Below, piece after piece: positions 5,757 to 14,372 of a DNA stretch of 64,000 bases; within the stretch, counting starts at the first letter, position 1; each line of letters starts with the position of its first letter. The stretch is from positions 1 to 64,000 of the forward strand of contig NZ_BOOU01000032.1 in NCBI RefSeq assembly GCF_016863395.1, in the 5' to 3' direction. The notes below the pieces were generated by a model that searched no databases, was not told where the DNA came from, and was given only the letters and a program-made list of their open reading frames with translations. The translations under genes were made by a program, and so were the position numbers. The DNA comes from Sphaerisporangium rufum. GTDB taxonomy: Bacteria; Actinomycetota; Actinomycetes; Streptosporangiales; Streptosporangiaceae.

Positions 5757-5862
5757 CCGCCCCGGGGGCGGTCACTCCAGGTTCCCGGGGCTCCGGGGGC
5801 CGTCCGATCCGGTGCCCCCCCCCCCGGCGGGGGCGTCCGGTGGCGGCCCGCCCGCCGGCGGT

Positions 5863-5868
5863 TACCGT
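5863..5868 (+). promoter_or_regulatory. -10 element of a leaderless PfkB gene
   Basis: TACCGT ends 6 nt before the GTG start at 5875, leaving no space for a ribosome-binding site. The fit to TANNNT and the spacing match leaderless promoters of actinobacteria. Confidence 0.5.
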
Positions 5869-5874
5869 GGGGCG

Positions 5875-6819
5875 GTGACGATCGGGGCGCTGTTCGCGGG
5901 GCTGTGCACGTTCGACCTGGTCCAGTCGGTGGCGCGGATGCCCGGGGCGAACGAGAAGGTCACCGCGCTGCGCCAGGCGGTCGCGGCGGGCGGCCCGGCG
6001 GCCAACGCGGCGGTTACTTTCGCCCGGCTGGGCGGGTCGGCCACGCTGGTCAGCGCGGTGGGCGCGCATCCGCTCGCGGCCGGGATCCGGGCGGACCTGG
6101 CCGCCGAGGGGGTGCGGCTGGCCGACGTGACACCGGATGACCCGGAGCCGCCCGCCATCTCGACGATCATGGTGACCCGGGGCAGCGGCGACCGGGCGGT
6201 GGTGTCGGTCAACGCCGCGCATCGCCGGGTGCGTCCGCCCGCGGAGCTGCCCGCGCTGGTGGCGGCGAGCCGGGTGGTCCACCTGGACGGCCACCACCCC
6301 GGGCTCGCGCTGGCCGCCGCCCGGCACGCCCGGGACGCGGCCCGGCCGGTGGTGCTGGACGGCGGCAGCTGGAAGCCCGGCACGGCCGAGTTGCTGCCGC
6401 TGGTGGACGTCGCGGTGGTGTCGGCCGACTTCCGCCCGCCGGGCGCGCCGGCGGACGTGCTCGCCTTCCTGCACGCGGCCGGGGTGCGCTTCGCGGCGGT
6501 GACCGCCGGCCCGGCCCCGATCCGGTGGCGGGGCGAGCGCGGCACCGGCCAGGTGCCGGTGCCGGCCGTACCGGTGGTGGACACCCTCGGCGCCGGGGAC
6601 GTCCTGCACGGAGCACTGACGTTCGCGCTGGCCCGGGCCCTGACCGGAGACCACGGGCCCGGCTGCGCACCGGAGGGCGGACCCGGCGGCGAAGTCGGCG
6701 GCGGGCTCGATGACGCCCGCTTCGCGGCGGCGCTGGAGTTCGCCGTCCCGGTGGCCGGCGCCGCGTGCGCCTCCTTCGGGACCCGCGCCTGGACGTGGCC
6801 CGCCGGGAAGGTCAGCTGA
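5875..6819 (+). CDS. PfkB/ribokinase-family sugar or nucleoside kinase
   Basis: This 314-residue protein has the PfkB fold: an N-terminal substrate region with NAAVTFARLGGSATLVSAVG and the C-terminal signature DTLGAGD at residues 236-242, whose final Asp is the catalytic base. Family members phosphorylate ribose, fructose, adenosine, 2-keto-3-deoxygluconate and similar compounds; the exact substrate cannot be read from sequence. The GTG at 5875 is preferred because the upstream in-frame extension is low-complexity Pro/Gly and a TACCGT box lies 6 nt before it. The stop overlaps the convergent amidohydrolase gene by 8 bases. Confidence 0.88.
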   Translation: MTIGALFAGLCTFDLVQSVARMPGANEKVTALRQAVAAGGPAANAAVTFARLGGSATLVSAVGAHPLAAGIRADLAAEGVRLADVTPDDPEPPAISTIMVTRGSGDRAVVSVNAAHRRVRPPAELPALVAASRVVHLDGHHPGLALAAARHARDAARPVVLDGGSWKPGTAELLPLVDVAVVSADFRPPGAPADVLAFLHAAGVRFAAVTAGPAPIRWRGERGTGQVPVPAVPVVDTLGAGDVLHGALTFALARALTGDHGPGCAPEGGPGGEVGGGLDDARFAAALEFAVPVAGAACASFGTRAWTWPAGKVS

Positions 6820-8452
6820 CGGCCAGCCCCGCGGCGTCGTGCACGACGGCGCCGCCGACCACGGTGGCCAGCACGTCGATGCCACCGATGCGCTCCGCCG
6901 GGACGGATAGCAGGTCGTCGGCCAGCACGGTGAGGTCGGCGAGCTTCCCGCGCGCCAGCGTGCCCTTGTCCCGCTCCTCCCCCGCCGCGTACGCCGATCC
7001 GGCCGTGTAGGCGTACAGCGCCTGCCCGGCGGTGAGGGCCTCGGCAGGGTTGAACGGGACGCCGGCCGAGGTGACCCGGTTGACCAGGTCGTGGATGCCC
7101 AGCAGCGGGGCGCCCTCGACGACCGGGCAGTCGGAGCTGCCCGGCAGCACGATGCCGGCGTCCAGGAAGGAACGCTGACGGTAGCAGCCGAGCGCCCGCT
7201 CCGGGCCCAGGGCGTCCAGCATGCCGTCGCCGAGCTCGCTGACGAACCGCCCCTGCGGCACCGGGATGACGCCCAGGCGGGCGATCCGGGCCACCTGCGC
7301 GTCCCCGGTGACCGCGCAGTGCTCGATCCGGTGGCGGGCGCCGGGACGTGGACGGCGCGCCTGGGCCTCCTCGTAGGCGTCCAGCACGACGTCGATCGCC
7401 CGGTCGCCGATGGCGTGCGCGGCGATCCGCCAGCCGGAGGCGTGCGCGCGCAGCACGAACTCCCGCAGCTCGGCCCGGTCCTGCTGCAGCAGCCCTCGGT
7501 TGCCGGGCTCGGCGGCGTAGTCGCAGCACATCGCGGCGGTGCGGCCGATCAGCGATCCGTCGGTGAACAGCTTGACCGGGCCGACGCGCAGCCGGTCGTC
7601 ACCGAGTCCGGTGCCCACGCCGAGGTCGAGGCCGAACCGGCCGGGATCCAGCTCGTGCAGGTTCGGCGAGCCGGGCATCACGGTGACCCGCTGGGGCAGC
7701 ACGCCGCGGCGCACCGCCTCCTGGAAGGCGGCGATGTCCCAGGACGCGTTGCCGGCCAGCCCGTGCCCGACCCCCGGTTCGGTCAGGCTGGTGAGCCCGT
7801 CGGCGGCGACGGCCCGGCCGGCCAGTGCCAGGCCCTCGACGAAGTCCTCGAACGGGACCGGGCGCAGTACCCGGTGGGCCAGCCCCTGGGCCTGCTCGGT
7901 GAGCAGCCCGTCGGGCACGCCGTCGGTGTCCCGGCCGATGGTGCCGCCGGGGATATCGGCCGGCAGGTCCTGCGGGCGGGCGAAGCCCATCCGGGCCAAC
8001 GCCGCGGTGCTGGCCACGCCCATGTGGCCCGAAGTGTGCTGCAGCCACACCGGCCGGCCGCCGGCCGCCCGGTCCAGCCCGGTCCGGGACGGGTGCCGGC
8101 CGCCGAGCCGGTTCTGGTCGTAGCCGCCACCGCGCACCCAGGCGTCCGGCGGCAACTCGGCGGCCCGGGCGGCCACCGCCGCGTACAGCTCCTCCAGGGT
8201 GGCGACGGTGCCGTGCCGCAGGTCCAGTTCGCGCAGCCGCTGGCCGCGCATGGACAGGTGGTGGTGGGCGTCGTTGAGCCCGGGCACCGCGCAGGCCCCG
8301 CCGAGATCGACGACGGCGCCGGCGCCGAGGCCGTCGAGTTCCTCGTCCAGCCCGGCGATCCGCCCGGCGAACACACCGAGGCGGGTGGCGGCCGGCCGGT
8401 CGGGGTCCAGGGTGGTGAACCGGCCGTTCACGAACAGGACGTCCAGCCGCAT
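6812..8452 (-). CDS. YtcJ/NfdA-type metal-dependent amidohydrolase
   Basis: A 546-residue amidohydrolase of the YtcJ family, relatives of N-substituted formamide deformylase. The metal-binding motif LNDAHHHLS lies at about 59-67; the RIEHC and SDCPV motifs further on supply later metal or active-site residues. These enzymes hydrolyse amide or formamide bonds of varied small molecules. The ATG at 8452 follows GAGGAG with 8-nt spacing; a GTG 9 bases upstream overlaps that site and is rejected. It is the last gene of the ureAB-ureC-transporter-amidohydrolase operon, 36 nt after the transporter, so it may release or pre-process the nitrogen compound handled by the operon. The substrate is unknown. 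Confidence 0.88.
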   Translation of the reverse strand: MRLDVLFVNGRFTTLDPDRPAATRLGVFAGRIAGLDEELDGLGAGAVVDLGGACAVPGLNDAHHHLSMRGQRLRELDLRHGTVATLEELYAAVAARAAELPPDAWVRGGGYDQNRLGGRHPSRTGLDRAAGGRPVWLQHTSGHMGVASTAALARMGFARPQDLPADIPGGTIGRDTDGVPDGLLTEQAQGLAHRVLRPVPFEDFVEGLALAGRAVAADGLTSLTEPGVGHGLAGNASWDIAAFQEAVRRGVLPQRVTVMPGSPNLHELDPGRFGLDLGVGTGLGDDRLRVGPVKLFTDGSLIGRTAAMCCDYAAEPGNRGLLQQDRAELREFVLRAHASGWRIAAHAIGDRAIDVVLDAYEEAQARRPRPGARHRIEHCAVTGDAQVARIARLGVIPVPQGRFVSELGDGMLDALGPERALGCYRQRSFLDAGIVLPGSSDCPVVEGAPLLGIHDLVNRVTSAGVPFNPAEALTAGQALYAYTAGSAYAAGEERDKGTLARGKLADLTVLADDLLSVPAERIGGIDVLATVVGGAVVHDAAGLAVS

Positions 8453-8488
8453 GGCGGCCACTCCTCTCCCTCGGGTGCCCGGCGTTGG

Positions 8489-9775
8489 TCAGGCGCCGGT
8501 GGTGACCGGCGCCGGCCGGGCAGCCGCCGCCCGGCGGTGCAGCACGGTGACGCACGCCATGCTGAGCAGGATGATGAAGATGTACTGGGCGACCACCCAC
8601 CAGATCGTGCCCGACCAGTTCAGCAGCGCCTGAGCGATCAGCGGCGTGGTGCCGCCGATCAGCGCCCCGCACAGCTGGTAGGCCAGCGAGATGCCGGTGT
8701 AGCGGATCCTGGCCGGGAAGACCTCGGCGAGGAACCCGGCCAGCGCGGCGTAGGAGGTGCCGCTGAACACGATGCTGAGCGCCAGCCCGGTGGTGACCAG
8801 TGGCGGCGAGCCGGTGCCGACCATCAGGAAGGTGATCGGCGTGCAGACGATCAGCGCGGCGAACGCGATCAGCATGTATCGGGCGGCGCCCCACCGCTGG
8901 CCCAGGACGGCGCCGGCCGGCTGGGTGACGAACTGGACGACCGACACGATGATCAGCACGTTCAGCATGGTGCCCTTGGCGATGCCGAGGTCGGTGGTGG
9001 CCCAGGACAGGATGAAGGTGTTGGTGAAGTAGGCCGAGGCGATGCCGACGCCGCTCGCGCCGATGCCGAGCAGCACCAGCGGCCAGGCGGTGCGCAGCAC
9101 CTCGGCGATCGGCAGCCGGGCGACCTCGCGGCGCTCGCGCATGCGCACGAACTCCGGCGACTCCTCCACCCGCAGCCGGATGACCAGTCCGATGACCAGC
9201 AGCACCGCCGACGCCAGGAACGGGATGCGCCAGCCGTAGGACAGGAAGGCCTCGTCGGGCAACAGGCTGACCAGCGCGAACATCGCGGTGGCGAGGATGG
9301 AGCCGGCCGGGGAGCCCTGCTGGGCGAACGCGGCGTACAGCACGCGCTTGGGCCCGGCGTGCTCGGCGGCGATCAGCACCGCGCCGCCCCACTCGCCGCC
9401 CACCGCGATGCCCTGCACCATGCGCAGCACGGCGAGCAGGATCGGGGCGAGCACTCCGACCGAGGCGTAGGTGGGCAGCACGCCGACCAGGGTGGTGGCG
9501 CCGCCCATGAGCAGCAGGGTGGCCACCAGGGTGCCCTTGCGGCCCAGCCGGTCGCCCAGGTGGCCGAAGATGATCCCGCCGAGCGGGCGGGCCAGGAAAC
9601 CCACCCAGAAGGTGGCGAAGGACGCCATCACCCCGGCGGCCGGGCTGGCCTCGGGGAAGAACAGCCGGCCGAACACCAGGGCGGAGGCGGTGCCGTAGAT
9701 GTAGAAGTCGTACCACTCGATCGAGGTGCCGACGAAGGAGGCGATGCCCGCGCCGCGGGCCTTGGTCGTGCTCAT
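8489..9775 (-). CDS. MHS-family (ProP/KgtP-like) MFS metabolite:proton symporter
   Basis: A 428-residue membrane protein with about 12 hydrophobic segments. The opening GIASFVGTSIEWYDFYIYGT and the loop GHLGDRLGRKGTL are hallmarks of the metabolite:H+ symporter branch of MFS, which includes ProP, KgtP and ShiA. The motif RMVQGIAVGGEWGGA and the RIPFLASAVL segment also fit. Such carriers import small organic acids, betaines or related solutes. It sits between ureC and the amidohydrolase with gaps of about 36 nt on each side, so it is probably the importer of the operon's substrate. ATG at 9775 is chosen; a GTG at 9784 is possible. Confidence 0.92.
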   Translation of the reverse strand: MSTTKARGAGIASFVGTSIEWYDFYIYGTASALVFGRLFFPEASPAAGVMASFATFWVGFLARPLGGIIFGHLGDRLGRKGTLVATLLLMGGATTLVGVLPTYASVGVLAPILLAVLRMVQGIAVGGEWGGAVLIAAEHAGPKRVLYAAFAQQGSPAGSILATAMFALVSLLPDEAFLSYGWRIPFLASAVLLVIGLVIRLRVEESPEFVRMRERREVARLPIAEVLRTAWPLVLLGIGASGVGIASAYFTNTFILSWATTDLGIAKGTMLNVLIIVSVVQFVTQPAGAVLGQRWGAARYMLIAFAALIVCTPITFLMVGTGSPPLVTTGLALSIVFSGTSYAALAGFLAEVFPARIRYTGISLAYQLCGALIGGTTPLIAQALLNWSGTIWWVVAQYIFIILLSMACVTVLHRRAAAARPAPVTTGA

Positions 9776-9812
9776 GAGTATCACCAGGGGGTCGGTCGGA
9801 CGGGGGGACGGG

Positions 9813-11495
9813 TCAGGCCAGGTGGTGCAGCCGGGACAGCGGCACCTCGGCCGCCGCGCCGACGCGGGCCTCGGCGCCGTCCACCAGGACGGGACCCGGG
9901 GTCCGGGGCACCTCCACCCGCGGGGTGGCGGTGTTGTGGCACATGTCGGCCCGGGTGAGGCCGCGCGCGTGCCGGATGGCCGCGTAACGCAGCCCGGCGG
10001 GCAGCGCGTCGCGGGCGTCGGCGGAGTCGAGCGCCTCCCGCGCGACGAAGACGCGGGCCAGCCGGCCCGGCGCCCCGCCGAGGCCGCCGAAGTAGGGCCG
10101 GTACGTCCGAGGCTGGGTGAGCCGGGTCGAGCCGGAGCCGCTGCCGGACACCCCCCAGGCGACGAAGCCGCTCTTGATGACCAGTTCGGGCTTGGCGCCG
10201 AACCAGGCGGGGTGCCACAGCACGATGTCGGCCAGCCGGCCGGGCGCCACGGTGCCGACCTCGTGCGCGATGCCGTGCGCGCGGGCCGGGTTGACCGTGA
10301 GCTTTGCGAGGTAGCGAAGCACCCGGGCGTTGTCCGGGCCGGTGACGCCGGCCCGCCGGGCCTGCAGGTGGGCGAGTTGCCAGGTGCGGCGGACGGTCTC
10401 GCCGATCCGGCCCATGCCCATCGAGTCGGAGTTGACGATGCTGATCGCGCCGAGGTCGTGCAGCACGTTCTCGGCGGCGATGGCGTGCGCGCGGATGCGG
10501 CTGCGGGTGACCTCGACGTCGCTGTCGATGCGGTGGTTCTGCCGGTGCACCGTCATGGTCATCGGGAACAGTTCGCCGACGGTGTTGACGGTGTACGGGA
10601 TGGTCGGCGTGGTGGAGGACGGCAGGATGTGCGGCTCGGACAGGATGGACAGCAGGTCGGGGTGCCCGCCGCCGCCCTCGACGTGGTAGGCGTGCACGGT
10701 GCGGCCGGCGGTGGCGGCCAGGGTGTCGGACAGGTAGCCCGACTCGTTCATCGAGTCCGAGTGCAGCGCCACCGGCAGGTCGGCGCGCTCGGCGACGCCC
10801 AGGCAGGTGTCGACGATGCGCGGGGTCGCGCCGAAGTCCTCGTGGATCTTGAACCCGCCGGCCCCGGCGGGGACGGCCTCCTCCAGCAGCCGGGCCGAGC
10901 TGGAGGAGCCGCGGGCCAGGAAGGCGGCGTTCAGCGGGGTGCCGCGCCAGCCCTCCATGAGGGTGTGCAGGTTGTGCGCCGGGTTGCAGCCGACGTCCCA
11001 GACGCCGCCGAGCCCCATGCCGACGATGGTGGTGACGCCGGCGGCGAGCGCGGCGGGCGCGATGTCCGGGGAGGACAGGTGCACGTGGGAGTCGACGATG
11101 CCGGGCGTGGCGATCAGGCCCTCGCCGGGCACGACCGCGGTGTGCGAGTCGATGGTGAAGTCCGCCGGGGCGGCGATGCCCGCCGGGTCCTCGCTCCCGC
11201 CGACCGTGACCACCCGGCCGTCCTTGACGCCGATGGTGGTCTTGCGCACGCCGAGCAGCGGGTCGAGCAGGACGACGCTGGTGATGGCCAGGTCGAGCGC
11301 CGAGTCGCGCCCGGCGCGCGGGGCGGCGAGCAGGCCGTCGCGCACGGTCTTGCCGCAGCCGCCGAGCGGCTCGTCCCCGTAGGCGGTGTCGTCGCGTTCG
11401 ATCTCGGCCCACAGGCAGGTGTCGCCGAGCCGGATCCGGTCGCCGGTGGTCGGGCCGTACAGCGCGGCGTAGGTGTCGCGAGGGATCGAGGTCAT
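9813..11495 (-). CDS. ureC: Divergent urease alpha subunit (UreC homologue) with altered flap
   Basis: A 560-residue urease alpha-subunit homologue. All nickel-ligand positions are present by inspection: His137/His139 (DSHVHL), the carbamylated-lysine position Lys216 with His218 (GFKIHED), His245 (ALHSDSMNES), His271 (YHVEGGGGH) and Asp357 (NSDSMGMGR). The mobile flap differs from canonical ureases: Cys-His-His is replaced by Val316-His317-Arg318, and the glycine loop after His271 is about two residues shorter. The start ATG overlaps the ureAB stop as ATGA, so translation is coupled. No ureD, E, F or G gene lies nearby. It resembles what I recall of the second, accessory-free urease locus in Streptomyces. 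Whether it hydrolyses urea is open. Confidence 0.93.
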   Translation of the reverse strand: MTSIPRDTYAALYGPTTGDRIRLGDTCLWAEIERDDTAYGDEPLGGCGKTVRDGLLAAPRAGRDSALDLAITSVVLLDPLLGVRKTTIGVKDGRVVTVGGSEDPAGIAAPADFTIDSHTAVVPGEGLIATPGIVDSHVHLSSPDIAPAALAAGVTTIVGMGLGGVWDVGCNPAHNLHTLMEGWRGTPLNAAFLARGSSSSARLLEEAVPAGAGGFKIHEDFGATPRIVDTCLGVAERADLPVALHSDSMNESGYLSDTLAATAGRTVHAYHVEGGGGHPDLLSILSEPHILPSSTTPTIPYTVNTVGELFPMTMTVHRQNHRIDSDVEVTRSRIRAHAIAAENVLHDLGAISIVNSDSMGMGRIGETVRRTWQLAHLQARRAGVTGPDNARVLRYLAKLTVNPARAHGIAHEVGTVAPGRLADIVLWHPAWFGAKPELVIKSGFVAWGVSGSGSGSTRLTQPRTYRPYFGGLGGAPGRLARVFVAREALDSADARDALPAGLRYAAIRHARGLTRADMCHNTATPRVEVPRTPGPVLVDGAEARVGAAAEVPLSRLHHLA

Positions 11496-12058
11496 GCCCG
11501 GACCACCTCCACGAGCCGCTCGGTGCCCGGCGGGAAGGCGACGGCGGTGCCGGCCGGGACGTCCAGGCGCATGCCGGCCGCCGCCGCACGGTCGAAGGAC
11601 AGCGCCGGGTTGGCCTCGGCCAGCGGGAAGTGCGAGGAAAGGTACACGATCAGCTCGCCGCCGTTGCGGATGGCCAGGCGCCCGCGATCCCGCCCGGCGT
11701 TGATCTCCACGTCGCCGGCGGCCACCGCGACCGCGCCGGGGCCGGCGCCGCGCGGCGGGCCGAAGGGACGGTCCACCGCCACCAGCGCCGTGCCGCTGGG
11801 GAACATGGCCTCGACCTGTACCTGTGGCACCAGGTCCGCGACGCCGTCCATCACGTCGTCCGCGGTGAGCAGGGAGCGCGCCTGCTCGACGATGTCGTCC
11901 AGCGGCACGCCGTCCCAGGCCCGCTCCAGGATCTCGTCGCACAGCAGCGCCACCGCCTCGGGGGCGTTCAGCACACGGCCACGCGCCCGCCGGCGCCGGG
12001 CCAGCTCGGCCACCGTGAAGATGGTGAGCCGTTCCTGTTCACGAGGCGTCAGATGCAC
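11492..12058 (-). CDS. ureAB: Fused urease gamma/beta subunit (UreAB)
   Basis: A 188-residue fusion. The N-terminal half is gamma subunit (MHLTPREQERLTIF ... ARGRVLNAPEAVALLCDEILE), the C-terminal half is beta subunit (GDVEINAGRDRGRLAIRNGG ... NPALSFDRAAAAGMRLDVPAGTAVAFPPG). The canonical beta motif SHYHF is SHFPL here and the usual C-terminal tail is short, so the protein is divergent. It is the first gene of the operon and overlaps ureC by 4 bases. GTG at 12058 is the start giving a normal gamma N-terminus; the GGAAGG upstream is rather distant (about 14 nt). A promoter TTGGAT-N18-TACCGT precedes it. Confidence 0.9.
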   Translation of the reverse strand: MHLTPREQERLTIFTVAELARRRRARGRVLNAPEAVALLCDEILERAWDGVPLDDIVEQARSLLTADDVMDGVADLVPQVQVEAMFPSGTALVAVDRPFGPPRGAGPGAVAVAAGDVEINAGRDRGRLAIRNGGELIVYLSSHFPLAEANPALSFDRAAAAGMRLDVPAGTAVAFPPGTERLVEVVRA

Positions 12059-12111
12059 AACGACACGCCCGCCTTCCGGTCGACGACCTTCGCTGTCAGC
12101 GGAGTTCGTCC

Positions 12112-12141
12112 ACGGTAAGCACAGCGAGGCGCCCCATCCAA
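12112..12141 (-). promoter_or_regulatory. Promoter of the ureAB operon
   Basis: On the minus strand a -35 TTGGAT (12136-12141) is followed by 18 nt and a -10 TACCGT (12112-12117), which predicts a leader of about 45 nt before the GTG at 12058. The -35 lies just beside the dyad at 12149-12167. Confidence 0.45.
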
Positions 12142-12148
12142 TGGCATA

Positions 12149-12167
12149 CCATCGCGGAAACCGATGG
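12149..12167. promoter_or_regulatory. Dyad operator between the ureAB operon and pucR
   Basis: CCATCG-N7-CGATGG is a perfect 6-bp inverted repeat. It ends just before the pucR -10 TAGATT (12169-12174) and lies just upstream of the ureAB -35. A protein bound here could repress pucR and activate the urease-like operon. The PucR-like protein is the obvious candidate. Confidence 0.5.
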
Positions 12168-12180
12168 CTAGATTGTGCAG

Positions 12181-13344
12181 ATGAACGACACACCCGCTCC
12201 GTCGGTGGCCGCGCTGGCGCTGCGCTGCCTGGACGACATCGTGGCCATCACCGGGGTCTGGCTGTCCCGCGCGATGCTGATCGACCCCTACGGCCGGCCG
12301 GATCCGCCCGTCCCGGCCGAGGAACTGCGCGACACCGCGCTGGACGGCCTGGAGATGCTGTTGCGGCACGTGGCCACCGGGGTGGTGGCTCCGGGCATGG
12401 CCGGGTTCTCCGAGCGGGTCGGCGAGCGCCGGGCCGGGCAGGGGGTGCCGCTGGCCTCCCTGCTGGCCGCGGCCCGGCTGGACGCCCGGGTGATCTGGGA
12501 GGCCATGCGGGCGCGGGCCGTGCCGGCCGCGCTGCCCGACCTGATCGGCGGCGCGCACCACGTATGGGAGGCGGTGGAGCAGCACGTCACCGGGCTGATG
12601 ACCGGCTACCAGCGGGCGGTGATGGAGATGGGGCGCCAGCGGGAGGACCAGCACCGCGCCTGGTTCGCCCGGCTGCTGGACAACCAGGGCCGCAATCCGG
12701 ACGTCGTCCGCGACGCCGGCCGGGTGCTCGGCTTCCAGCCGGCCGGCCCGTTCCTGACCGCCGTGGCGCACCCCGAGGCCGGGGCGGCGCTGCGGGCCGC
12801 GGCGAACGGGCTGACGGCGGCCGGGCTGCGCTGCCACCGGCACGACACGCCGACCGGTGACGTGCTGGTCGTGCAGCTGCCCGACCGGCCCAGTGACCAC
12901 GAGGCCGGGGTGCTGGACGCGCTGGCCGGAGTGCGCTGCGGGGTCGCTCCCGCCGTGACCGGGCTGGCCGGGGTGCCGGCGGCCGTGCGGCTGGCCGCGG
13001 CCACGGCCCGCGCGCCGGGTGGCGGGACCGGGCCGCGGCGCCTGGAGGACAGCTGGCTCGCGGTGTTCGCCGGGACCGGTCCGGAGCCGGCCGCCGAGCT
13101 GGTCCGCCGGGTGCTCGGCCCGCTGGCCGGCACCGAGGGCGAGCGGCTGCTGGAGACGGTGCGCACCCACCTGTCGGGATCGGGGGCGATCGCCGACACC
13201 GCCGCGGCGCTGTACTGCCACCGCAACACCGTCCAGCACCGCTTCGCCCGGTTCCGCGAACTGACCGGGCGGGACGTCCGCGTCCCCCGGGACGCCGCGG
13301 TGGTCGCCCTGGCCCTGCAGGCCGCCGCCGGCCCGCCGCCCTGA
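12181..13344 (+). CDS. PucR/CdaR-type regulator with C-terminal HTH
   Basis: A 387-residue regulator. The C-terminus carries the PucR-type helix-turn-helix (LLETVRTHLSGSGAIADTAA then CHRNTVQHRFARFRELTG), which is diagnostic of the family; the N-terminal two thirds are a sensor-like region without a recognised ligand motif. PucR proteins control purine, allantoin and urea catabolism and other nitrogen or aromatic pathways. It is divergent from the urease-like operon across 122 bases that contain a dyad operator. A TAGATT box 6 nt before ATG 12181 predicts a leaderless mRNA; GTG 12175 in the same frame is less likely. Confidence 0.88.
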   Translation: MNDTPAPSVAALALRCLDDIVAITGVWLSRAMLIDPYGRPDPPVPAEELRDTALDGLEMLLRHVATGVVAPGMAGFSERVGERRAGQGVPLASLLAAARLDARVIWEAMRARAVPAALPDLIGGAHHVWEAVEQHVTGLMTGYQRAVMEMGRQREDQHRAWFARLLDNQGRNPDVVRDAGRVLGFQPAGPFLTAVAHPEAGAALRAAANGLTAAGLRCHRHDTPTGDVLVVQLPDRPSDHEAGVLDALAGVRCGVAPAVTGLAGVPAAVRLAAATARAPGGGTGPRRLEDSWLAVFAGTGPEPAAELVRRVLGPLAGTEGERLLETVRTHLSGSGAIADTAAALYCHRNTVQHRFARFRELTGRDVRVPRDAAVVALALQAAAGPPP

Positions 13345-13547: not shown

Positions 13548-14372
13548 TCAGTCGAGGGCGCCGAGGGTGATGCCTTCGATGATGTGGCGCTGGGCGGCGA
13601 CCGCGACCAGCAGCACCGGGACGATGGCGATCAGCGACGCCGCCATGATCAGGTTGTACTGGGTGGTGAACTGGCTCTGGAACACCGACAACCCCTGCGA
13701 CAGCACCGACATCTCGGTGGTGTTCACCACGATCAGCGGGAACAGGAAGTTGTTCCAGTTCTGCAGGAACAGGATGATGGCCAGCGCGGCGGCGACCGGG
13801 CGGGCCAGCGGGGCGTAGACGGCGGCGAAGACGCGCAGCTCCGAGGCGCCGTCCAGCCGGGCCGCCTCGCCGAGCTCGCGCGGGGTGCCGAGGAAGAACT
13901 GCCGGAACAGGAACGCGCCGAGCCCGGAGGCGATGTTCGGCACGATCAGCCCCTGGTAGGTGTTGAGCCAGCCGAGATCGCCGAGCAGCTGCGAGATCGG
14001 CACGATGATCGCGCTGAACGGCACCATCAGCCCGCTGAGCGCCAGCACGAACAGCGGCCGCTTGCCGGGGAAGTCGAGCATGGCGAAGGCGTAGCCGGCC
14101 AGCAGGCCGCTGAGCAGCTGGCCGGCCGTGGCGGCCACCCCGAAGATCGTGGTGTTGAGGTACCAGCGGCCGAAGGGCGCCTGCGACAGCGCCTGGCCGA
14201 TGTTGCCCCACCGCGGGTGCTCCGGCCACAGCGGCGCCGCCGGGTTGACGATCTCGGCGTCGGTCTTCAGCGCCCCCGCCACCATCCACAGCAGCGGGAA
14301 GGCCACGATCAGCACGGCCAGGCCGAGCAGCGTGTACACCACGGCGCGGCGGGCCACCAGGCTAGCGGGCAC
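13548..14372 (-). CDS. Sugar ABC transporter permease, MalG type
   Basis: A 274-residue inner-membrane permease with six hydrophobic segments. The EAA loop that contacts the ATPase reads ELGEAARLDGASELRVF followed by LARP, as in MalG/CUT1 permeases. It is the third gene of the operon and starts with a GTG that overlaps the MalF-type gene by 11 bases. No ATPase gene accompanies it; CUT1 systems of actinomycetes usually share the MsiK ATPase. The transported sugar cannot be deduced. Confidence 0.93.
   Translation of the reverse strand: MPASLVARRAVVYTLLGLAVLIVAFPLLWMVAGALKTDAEIVNPAAPLWPEHPRWGNIGQALSQAPFGRWYLNTTIFGVAATAGQLLSGLLAGYAFAMLDFPGKRPLFVLALSGLMVPFSAIIVPISQLLGDLGWLNTYQGLIVPNIASGLGAFLFRQFFLGTPRELGEAARLDGASELRVFAAVYAPLARPVAAALAIILFLQNWNNFLFPLIVVNTTEMSVLSQGLSVFQSQFTTQYNLIMAASLIAIVPVLLVAVAAQRHIIEGITLGALD

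Follow-up and report, generated by a model that had tools for sequence, protein, structure and literature searches.

Textbook ureases act on one substrate, urea, use one metal, nickel, and depend on obligatory maturation proteins. According to one study, the urease clusters of Streptomyces coelicolor and S. avermitilis include some that consist of just ure(AB)C, beside another with accessory genes (PMC2492869). The Streptomyces genes SCO5525–5526 have been termed urea-utilizing genes, and SCO5527 is placed among the homologues of the Pseudomonas arginine-decarboxylase pathway with no step named (PMC3293853). In the AguA/AguB pathway, AguB is the N-carbamoylputrescine amidase (PMC9397018). No assignment of a ureido function to accessory-free urease relatives was found among titles and abstract openings, a coverage that leaves out most subscription papers. 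Here we describe a urease-like operon (positions 6812–12058) and its divergent regulator in a 64,000-nucleotide stretch of the Sphaerisporangium rufum contig NZ_BOOU01000032.1, hereafter the window. The operon comprises a ureAB fusion, a ureC-like gene, an MHS-type symporter gene and a YtcJ-type amidohydrolase gene. From sequence comparisons, and with a probability that we put at roughly 0.58, we propose that it is an uptake-and-degradation module, whose UreABC-like enzyme would act as a ureido hydrolase that converts R-NH-CO-NH2 to an amine, CO2 and NH3. This reading is favoured because deiminases of two families adjoin the relatives of the operon and because the active-site loop of the enzyme is altered.

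The catalytic subunit is encoded by the ureC-like gene at 9813–11495 on the minus strand (560 amino acids; Pfam Urease_alpha, 109.8 bits), and the fused gamma and beta subunits by ureAB at 11492–12058 on the same strand (188 amino acids, GTG start; Urease_gamma 124.8 bits, Urease_beta 84.5 bits). All three domains exceed their Pfam cutoffs. The fusion scores 227.4 bits against the NCBIfam bifunctional gamma/beta model PRK13192, below the cutoff of 243, and the window UreC, at 557.2 bits, falls short of the cutoff of 680 set for TIGR01792, the equivalog model of urease alpha. An order-wide comparison of 200 genomes returned a UreC match in 159, with 15 at 66–100% identity and, among the matches listed, the next at 51% or less. 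Scanning genome contigs gave 49 loci, namely 45 of the same group, here termed clade X (including two from Acidimicrobiaceae at 55–57% identity), and four others. All 52 distinct clade X sequences keep H134, H136, K217, H219, H246, H272, D360, H320 and R336, in a numbering that we take to be that of K. aerogenes urease. They also uniformly carry V319 in place of the flap Cys319, G363 for Ala363, and an active-site loop of 14 residues, which amounts to a deletion of 3–4 residues relative to canonical UreC (C319, A363 and a loop of 17–18 residues in 9/9). A 14-residue loop is likewise found in the 16 sequences of clades Y and Z, four of which keep C319, and in the three sequences of group W, which have A319. 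In a tree of 39 sequences, clade X (support 100/99), Y with Z (100/100), W (100/100) and the canonical enzymes (100/99) are each recovered, and the short-loop groups jointly stand apart from the canonical ones at 100/99. By its sequence and placement, the window UreC is a member of a distinct actinobacterial clade. A predicted structure of this protein, built from 12 sequences, had a mean predicted local distance difference test (pLDDT) score of 64.1, with the loop (160–172) and residues 355–363 below 50; it gave no information about the pocket and was set aside.

Genes neighbouring clade X ureC were tabulated in 52 rows representing 51 distinct places (L119 repeats L073), using a codon-usage gene caller whose start positions are approximate. 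The run that contains ureC also holds UreAB in 51 rows, an MHS symporter in 43, a YtcJ-type amidohydrolase in 34 and a thiamine diphosphate (ThDP) enzyme in 18, with an aldehyde dehydrogenase (10 rows), an ADI/DDAH-like protein (7) and a GlcD-like protein (2) as rarer members. A divergent PucR-type gene accompanies the urease-like operon in 47/52 rows and, given this recurrence and that of the MHS symporter, the arrangement seen in the window is not due to chance. The ADI/DDAH-like gene, which belongs to Nonomuraea operons, lies directly upstream of ureAB in its seven loci, and in none of the 52 rows does it share a run with YtcJ. Its representative in L063 matches Pfam ADI at 57 bits (cutoff 22.8) and can be aligned with DDAH proteins of solved structure, while reaching no NCBIfam equivalog cutoff. 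Deiminases of the agmatine and arginine types act on guanidino groups, from which they produce ureido groups, and what they set free is ammonia rather than urea.

Further neighbours of clade X were identified in single loci. In L070 and L072, both from uncultured Acidimicrobiaceae, a gene lies two genes from a ureC of 55–57% identity, and the L070 copy passes ornithine carbamoyltransferase models, which would constitute a further link to ureido chemistry. The ThDP enzyme of L039 passes PRK08199 (718.6 bits, cutoff 539), and the dehydrogenase of the same locus passes PRK13473 'aminobutyraldehyde dehydrogenase'. A role of the ThDP neighbour as glyoxylate carboligase or in allantoin metabolism was considered and dropped, as PRK08199 is the best family and glyoxylate carboligase falls far behind the acetolactate synthases. 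As a 5-guanidino-2-oxopentanoate decarboxylase, it reaches just 239.5 of 500 bits. A pathway through arginine, 2-ketoarginine and 4-guanidinobutyrate is compatible with the neighbours and confirmed by no model, and we do not claim it.

The second deiminase family is found with clade Z. Among its 27 loci, an AguA-like gene stands directly 3′ of ureC on the same strand in 21 and elsewhere in the locus in two, and is absent from four (L088, L090, L095 and L096). Both of the AguA-like proteins scanned with Pfam pass PAD_porph. Across 33 chosen genomes, AguA-like matches occur in 21 of the 23 with a clade Z enzyme versus one of the ten without a listed one (Fisher's test, p = 1.3e-5, descriptive only for genomes that were chosen and are related). 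In the one genome of the latter ten with such a match (G050), the AguA-like gene adjoins an AguB-like nitrilase of 219 bits. The locus number and the Streptomyces locus L076 suggest that SCO5527 is an adjacent deiminase gene of this kind, so that SCO5525–5527 would represent the clade Z arrangement; the canonical urease genes of S. coelicolor are SCO1231–1236. Each of the three clade Y loci includes a LacI-type regulator, an amino-acid permease and, directly 3′, a distantly related YtcJ-type amidohydrolase; a nitrilase-like gene is present in two of them. AtzE-like amidases are found near group W.

These neighbourhoods suggest a sequence of events in which the MHS symporter would import a nitrogenous compound, from which the YtcJ-type amidohydrolase of the window, or a guanidino deiminase in relatives, would make a compound with a ureido group, R-NH-CO-NH2. 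That group would then be hydrolysed by the UreABC-like enzyme, giving R-NH2, CO2 and NH3. Catalysis would take place at a binuclear metal centre of the urease type, built on a carbamylated lysine, in a pocket that C319V, A363G and the shorter loop change and presumably widen. PucR may sense the imported compound or its product. The metal could be inserted without the helpers UreD, UreF and UreG, and it may not be nickel. In the window operon, YtcJ would take the place of the deiminase and make the ureido compound from a cyclic ureide or a guanidino substrate. The original prediction had named a ureido, carbamoyl or formamide compound as the substrate; the guanidino-deiminase-like neighbours of relatives favour the first two, while the third finds backing just in the family resemblance of YtcJ.

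Several observations weigh against a ureido hydrolase. The window operon and its nearest relatives carry YtcJ and no deiminase, and 11 of the 52 clade X rows have neither YtcJ nor an ADI-like gene in the run, although some of these loci are truncated, and gaps or small gene calls interrupt the run in two. Transfer from clade Z to clade X is indirect, the UreC proteins of the two being about 50% identical, and the node that joins X with Y and Z has a support of 93/82, under the program's threshold and with the loop columns left in. The 21 clade Z loci, many of them more than 90% identical, are closely related rather than independent events. Five AguA-like proteins that were scanned reach 282–350.5 bits against the agmatine deiminase model TIGR03380, under its cutoff of 381.8, and the AguA and AguB cutoffs are reached in none of the 33 genomes. 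Nitrilase-family matches to AguB under the cutoff occur in all 33, which makes the absence of AguB a weak test, and AguB-type activity may possibly be encoded elsewhere in these genomes. The absence of a deiminase from the window, the identity of only about 50% between X and Z and the close kinship of the Z loci are among the reasons why our confidence in the ureido-hydrolase reading is held at the level stated.

Maturation genes also bear on the reading, and on the first of its rivals. A Urease_alpha profile search of the S. rufum genome found two UreC proteins, one on the window contig (C32) and one on a second contig (C47), which are 45% identical. On C47, ureA, ureB, ureC, ureF, ureG and ureD lie on one strand, with the UreD, cobW/UreG and UreF domains over their Pfam cutoffs, and these are the only matches to the UreD, UreF and UreG profiles in the genome (UreE was not searched). 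The original prediction had noted no ureDEFG genes with the operon, and the UreD, UreF and UreG matches on C47 alone agree with this; the second urease that it had proposed to look for is present on C47. One rival reading is that the window enzyme is an ordinary nickel-dependent urease, which relies on the C47 proteins for maturation in trans and is supplied with urea by its neighbours. The retention of all metal ligands together with H320 and R336 agrees with this, as does the score of the window UreC against PRK13207, a wider NCBIfam subfamily model named 'urease subunit alpha' (673.8 bits, cutoff 354). UreD is present in 30 of the 36 tested genomes that have a short-loop UreC, so that maturation in trans is possible there as well as in the window host, and in group W (L077, L078 and L079, Blastococcus-type) UreF, UreG and UreD directly follow ureC.

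The remaining six genomes (G061, G002, G188, G007, G106 and G123) have a short-loop UreC and no UreD match. One of them, a draft of 730 contigs (G188), nevertheless has UreF and UreG. The other five showed no UreF, and no UreG over cutoff, in profile searches. Of these, G061 is a single contig of 4.19 Mb, whose one match to the UreG profile is of 43 bits against a cutoff of 204; it carries both a clade X operon (L084, with PucR, UreAB, UreC, YtcJ, MHS, ThDP enzyme and aldehyde dehydrogenase genes) and a clade Y operon (L083). G106 consists of two contigs, and the draft assemblies of G007, G123 and G002 are split into 90 to 170. Because these five genomes have a short-loop UreC but no UreD, no UreF and no UreG above cutoff, the three helpers are probably dispensable for the short-loop family, at least in the five hosts. 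Together with the loss of C319, A363 and the full loop, and with deiminase neighbours that release no urea, this makes a nickel urease matured in trans unlikely in our view. The same pocket changes, the separate operon on C47 and the relatives in genomes without UreD and UreF uphold the earlier claim that the window enzyme is not a housekeeping urease.

An accessory-free urease that acts on urea with another metal would agree with the lack of maturation genes in the five genomes. The window UreC matches 3qga, 'Urease subunit beta 2', at 460 bits, which we take to be the iron urease UreA2B2 of Helicobacter mustelae, an enzyme for which maturation genes are said to be unnecessary. However, 3qga aligns without a loop deletion and with Cys in its flap, so the short loop is not merely a mark of accessory independence, and the loss of maturation genes alone would leave the pocket changes unexplained. 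An operon for urea would also not be expected to have its own transporter or a deiminase or YtcJ beside it, and we regard this alternative as improbable.

Two other alternatives turn on the YtcJ-type amidohydrolase, encoded at 6812–8461 on the minus strand (549 amino acids; Amidohydro_3, PF07969, 311.7 bits, over the Pfam cutoff). The closest solved structures to it are uncharacterized metal-dependent hydrolases. It may open a cyclic ureide, similar to hydantoin or allantoin, to a ureido acid that UreABC would decarbamoylate; such a reading falls within the ureido-hydrolase explanation and does not oppose it. The amidohydrolase superfamily to which YtcJ belongs contains hydantoinases and allantoinases, PucR would echo the regulators of purine catabolism, and a GlcD-like oxidase accompanies two of the clade X rows. 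The mutual exclusion of YtcJ and ADI-like genes also looks as if they were alternative producers of one type of intermediate. Against this, the window YtcJ reached no NCBIfam equivalog cutoff, those of the allantoinase and hydantoinase models included, and PucR-type regulators control many pathways. We consider the cyclic ureide a minority possibility, short of likely. The formamide substrate would instead involve the degradation of an isonitrile or N-substituted formamide, with YtcJ as an NfdA-like deformylase and UreABC acting on a formamide. N-substituted formamide deformylase and YtcJ presumably belong to one family. On the other hand, the named genes of the operon runs (many flanking genes being unnamed) include no formate gene and no hydratase for nitriles or isonitriles, urease chemistry targets carbonyl diamides, and the deiminase neighbours would be unexplained, which leaves this route very improbable.

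The remaining parts of the locus are as follows. The MHS-type metabolite/H+ symporter (431 amino acids) is encoded at 8489–9784 on the minus strand and scores 362 bits against NCBIfam TIGR00883 (cutoff 443) and 317 against the shikimate transporter model (cutoff 538). The PucR-type regulator gene lies on the plus strand, starting at an ATG at 12181 or a GTG at 12175 and ending at 13344 (Pfam PucR C-terminal helix-turn-helix 64.4 bits, GGDEF_2 31.6 bits). All five genes occupy the positions claimed for an operon with a divergent regulator. The spacing of 4–37 bases given for it also fits, with an overlap of 4 nt between ureAB and ureC and gaps of 28 nt between ureC and the MHS gene and of 27 nt between the MHS gene and YtcJ (36 nt if a downstream ATG is the YtcJ start). 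In the divergent promoter region (12059–12180), words that recur in the PucR-operon intergenic regions of relatives were sought; ATGCACA is found in 17/45, ATTGTGC in 16/45 and ACGTTGG in 19/45, counts that have no shuffled control. The words TGCACAA/ATTGTGC, near 12168–12186 and partly within the PucR start, and ACGTTGG are candidate operator elements. A scan for promoters and terminators gave no promoter-like and one terminator-like site, not above shuffled sequences. A PfkB-family sugar kinase gene (5812–6819) is convergent with YtcJ and overlaps its 3′ end by 8 nt, and a sugar-type ABC permease gene (13548–14372) follows PucR; no counterpart of either was noticed in the operon runs of relatives.

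Elsewhere, in L088 (G106:C1:373000-392000), a short-loop ureAB-ureC pair with 71% identity to clade Y stands beside a condensation-domain protein, an APH-type kinase and a protein that weakly matches a B12-binding domain (29 bits, below the cutoff of 32.1). This urease-like copy may be part of a biosynthetic cluster.

More tentatively, and at somewhat less than even odds, the short-loop proteins could form a branch of the urease family made up of ureido hydrolases that work without UreD, UreF and UreG. In many Streptosporangiaceae, this branch (clade Z) would replace AguB after agmatine-type deiminases, and with the MHS symporter (clade X) it would serve other guanidino or ureide pathways, AguA-like, ADI/DDAH-like and YtcJ proteins having been recruited as substrate producers. 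If so, a widespread actinobacterial branch has put the urease scaffold to a new use, the hydrolysis of carbamoyl amines, and ureC surveys of soil and rumen, as well as 'urea-utilizing' annotations, overcount ureases.

Compared with the canonical nickel urease (UreABC with UreDEFG), the window enzyme shares the domain architecture, the metal ligands, the carbamylatable Lys217, His320 and Arg336, but differs in its loop of 14 instead of 17–18 residues, C319V, A363G, a score below the TIGR01792 cutoff and the lack of linked maturation genes. It has the urease fold in common with the iron urease UreA2B2, from which its short loop and Val flap set it apart; we know of no deiminase, YtcJ or MHS association of that enzyme. 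Like SCO5525–5526, the window pair consists of a ureAB fusion and ureC only, whereas its clade is about 50% identical to clade Z, to which SCO5525–5526 probably belong. Its proposed reaction, in which an amine loses its carbamoyl group, would be of the AguB type, and clade Z UreABC adjoins an AguA-like gene just as AguB pairs with AguA. AguB is a member of the nitrilase family, however, and UreABC is an unrelated metalloenzyme.

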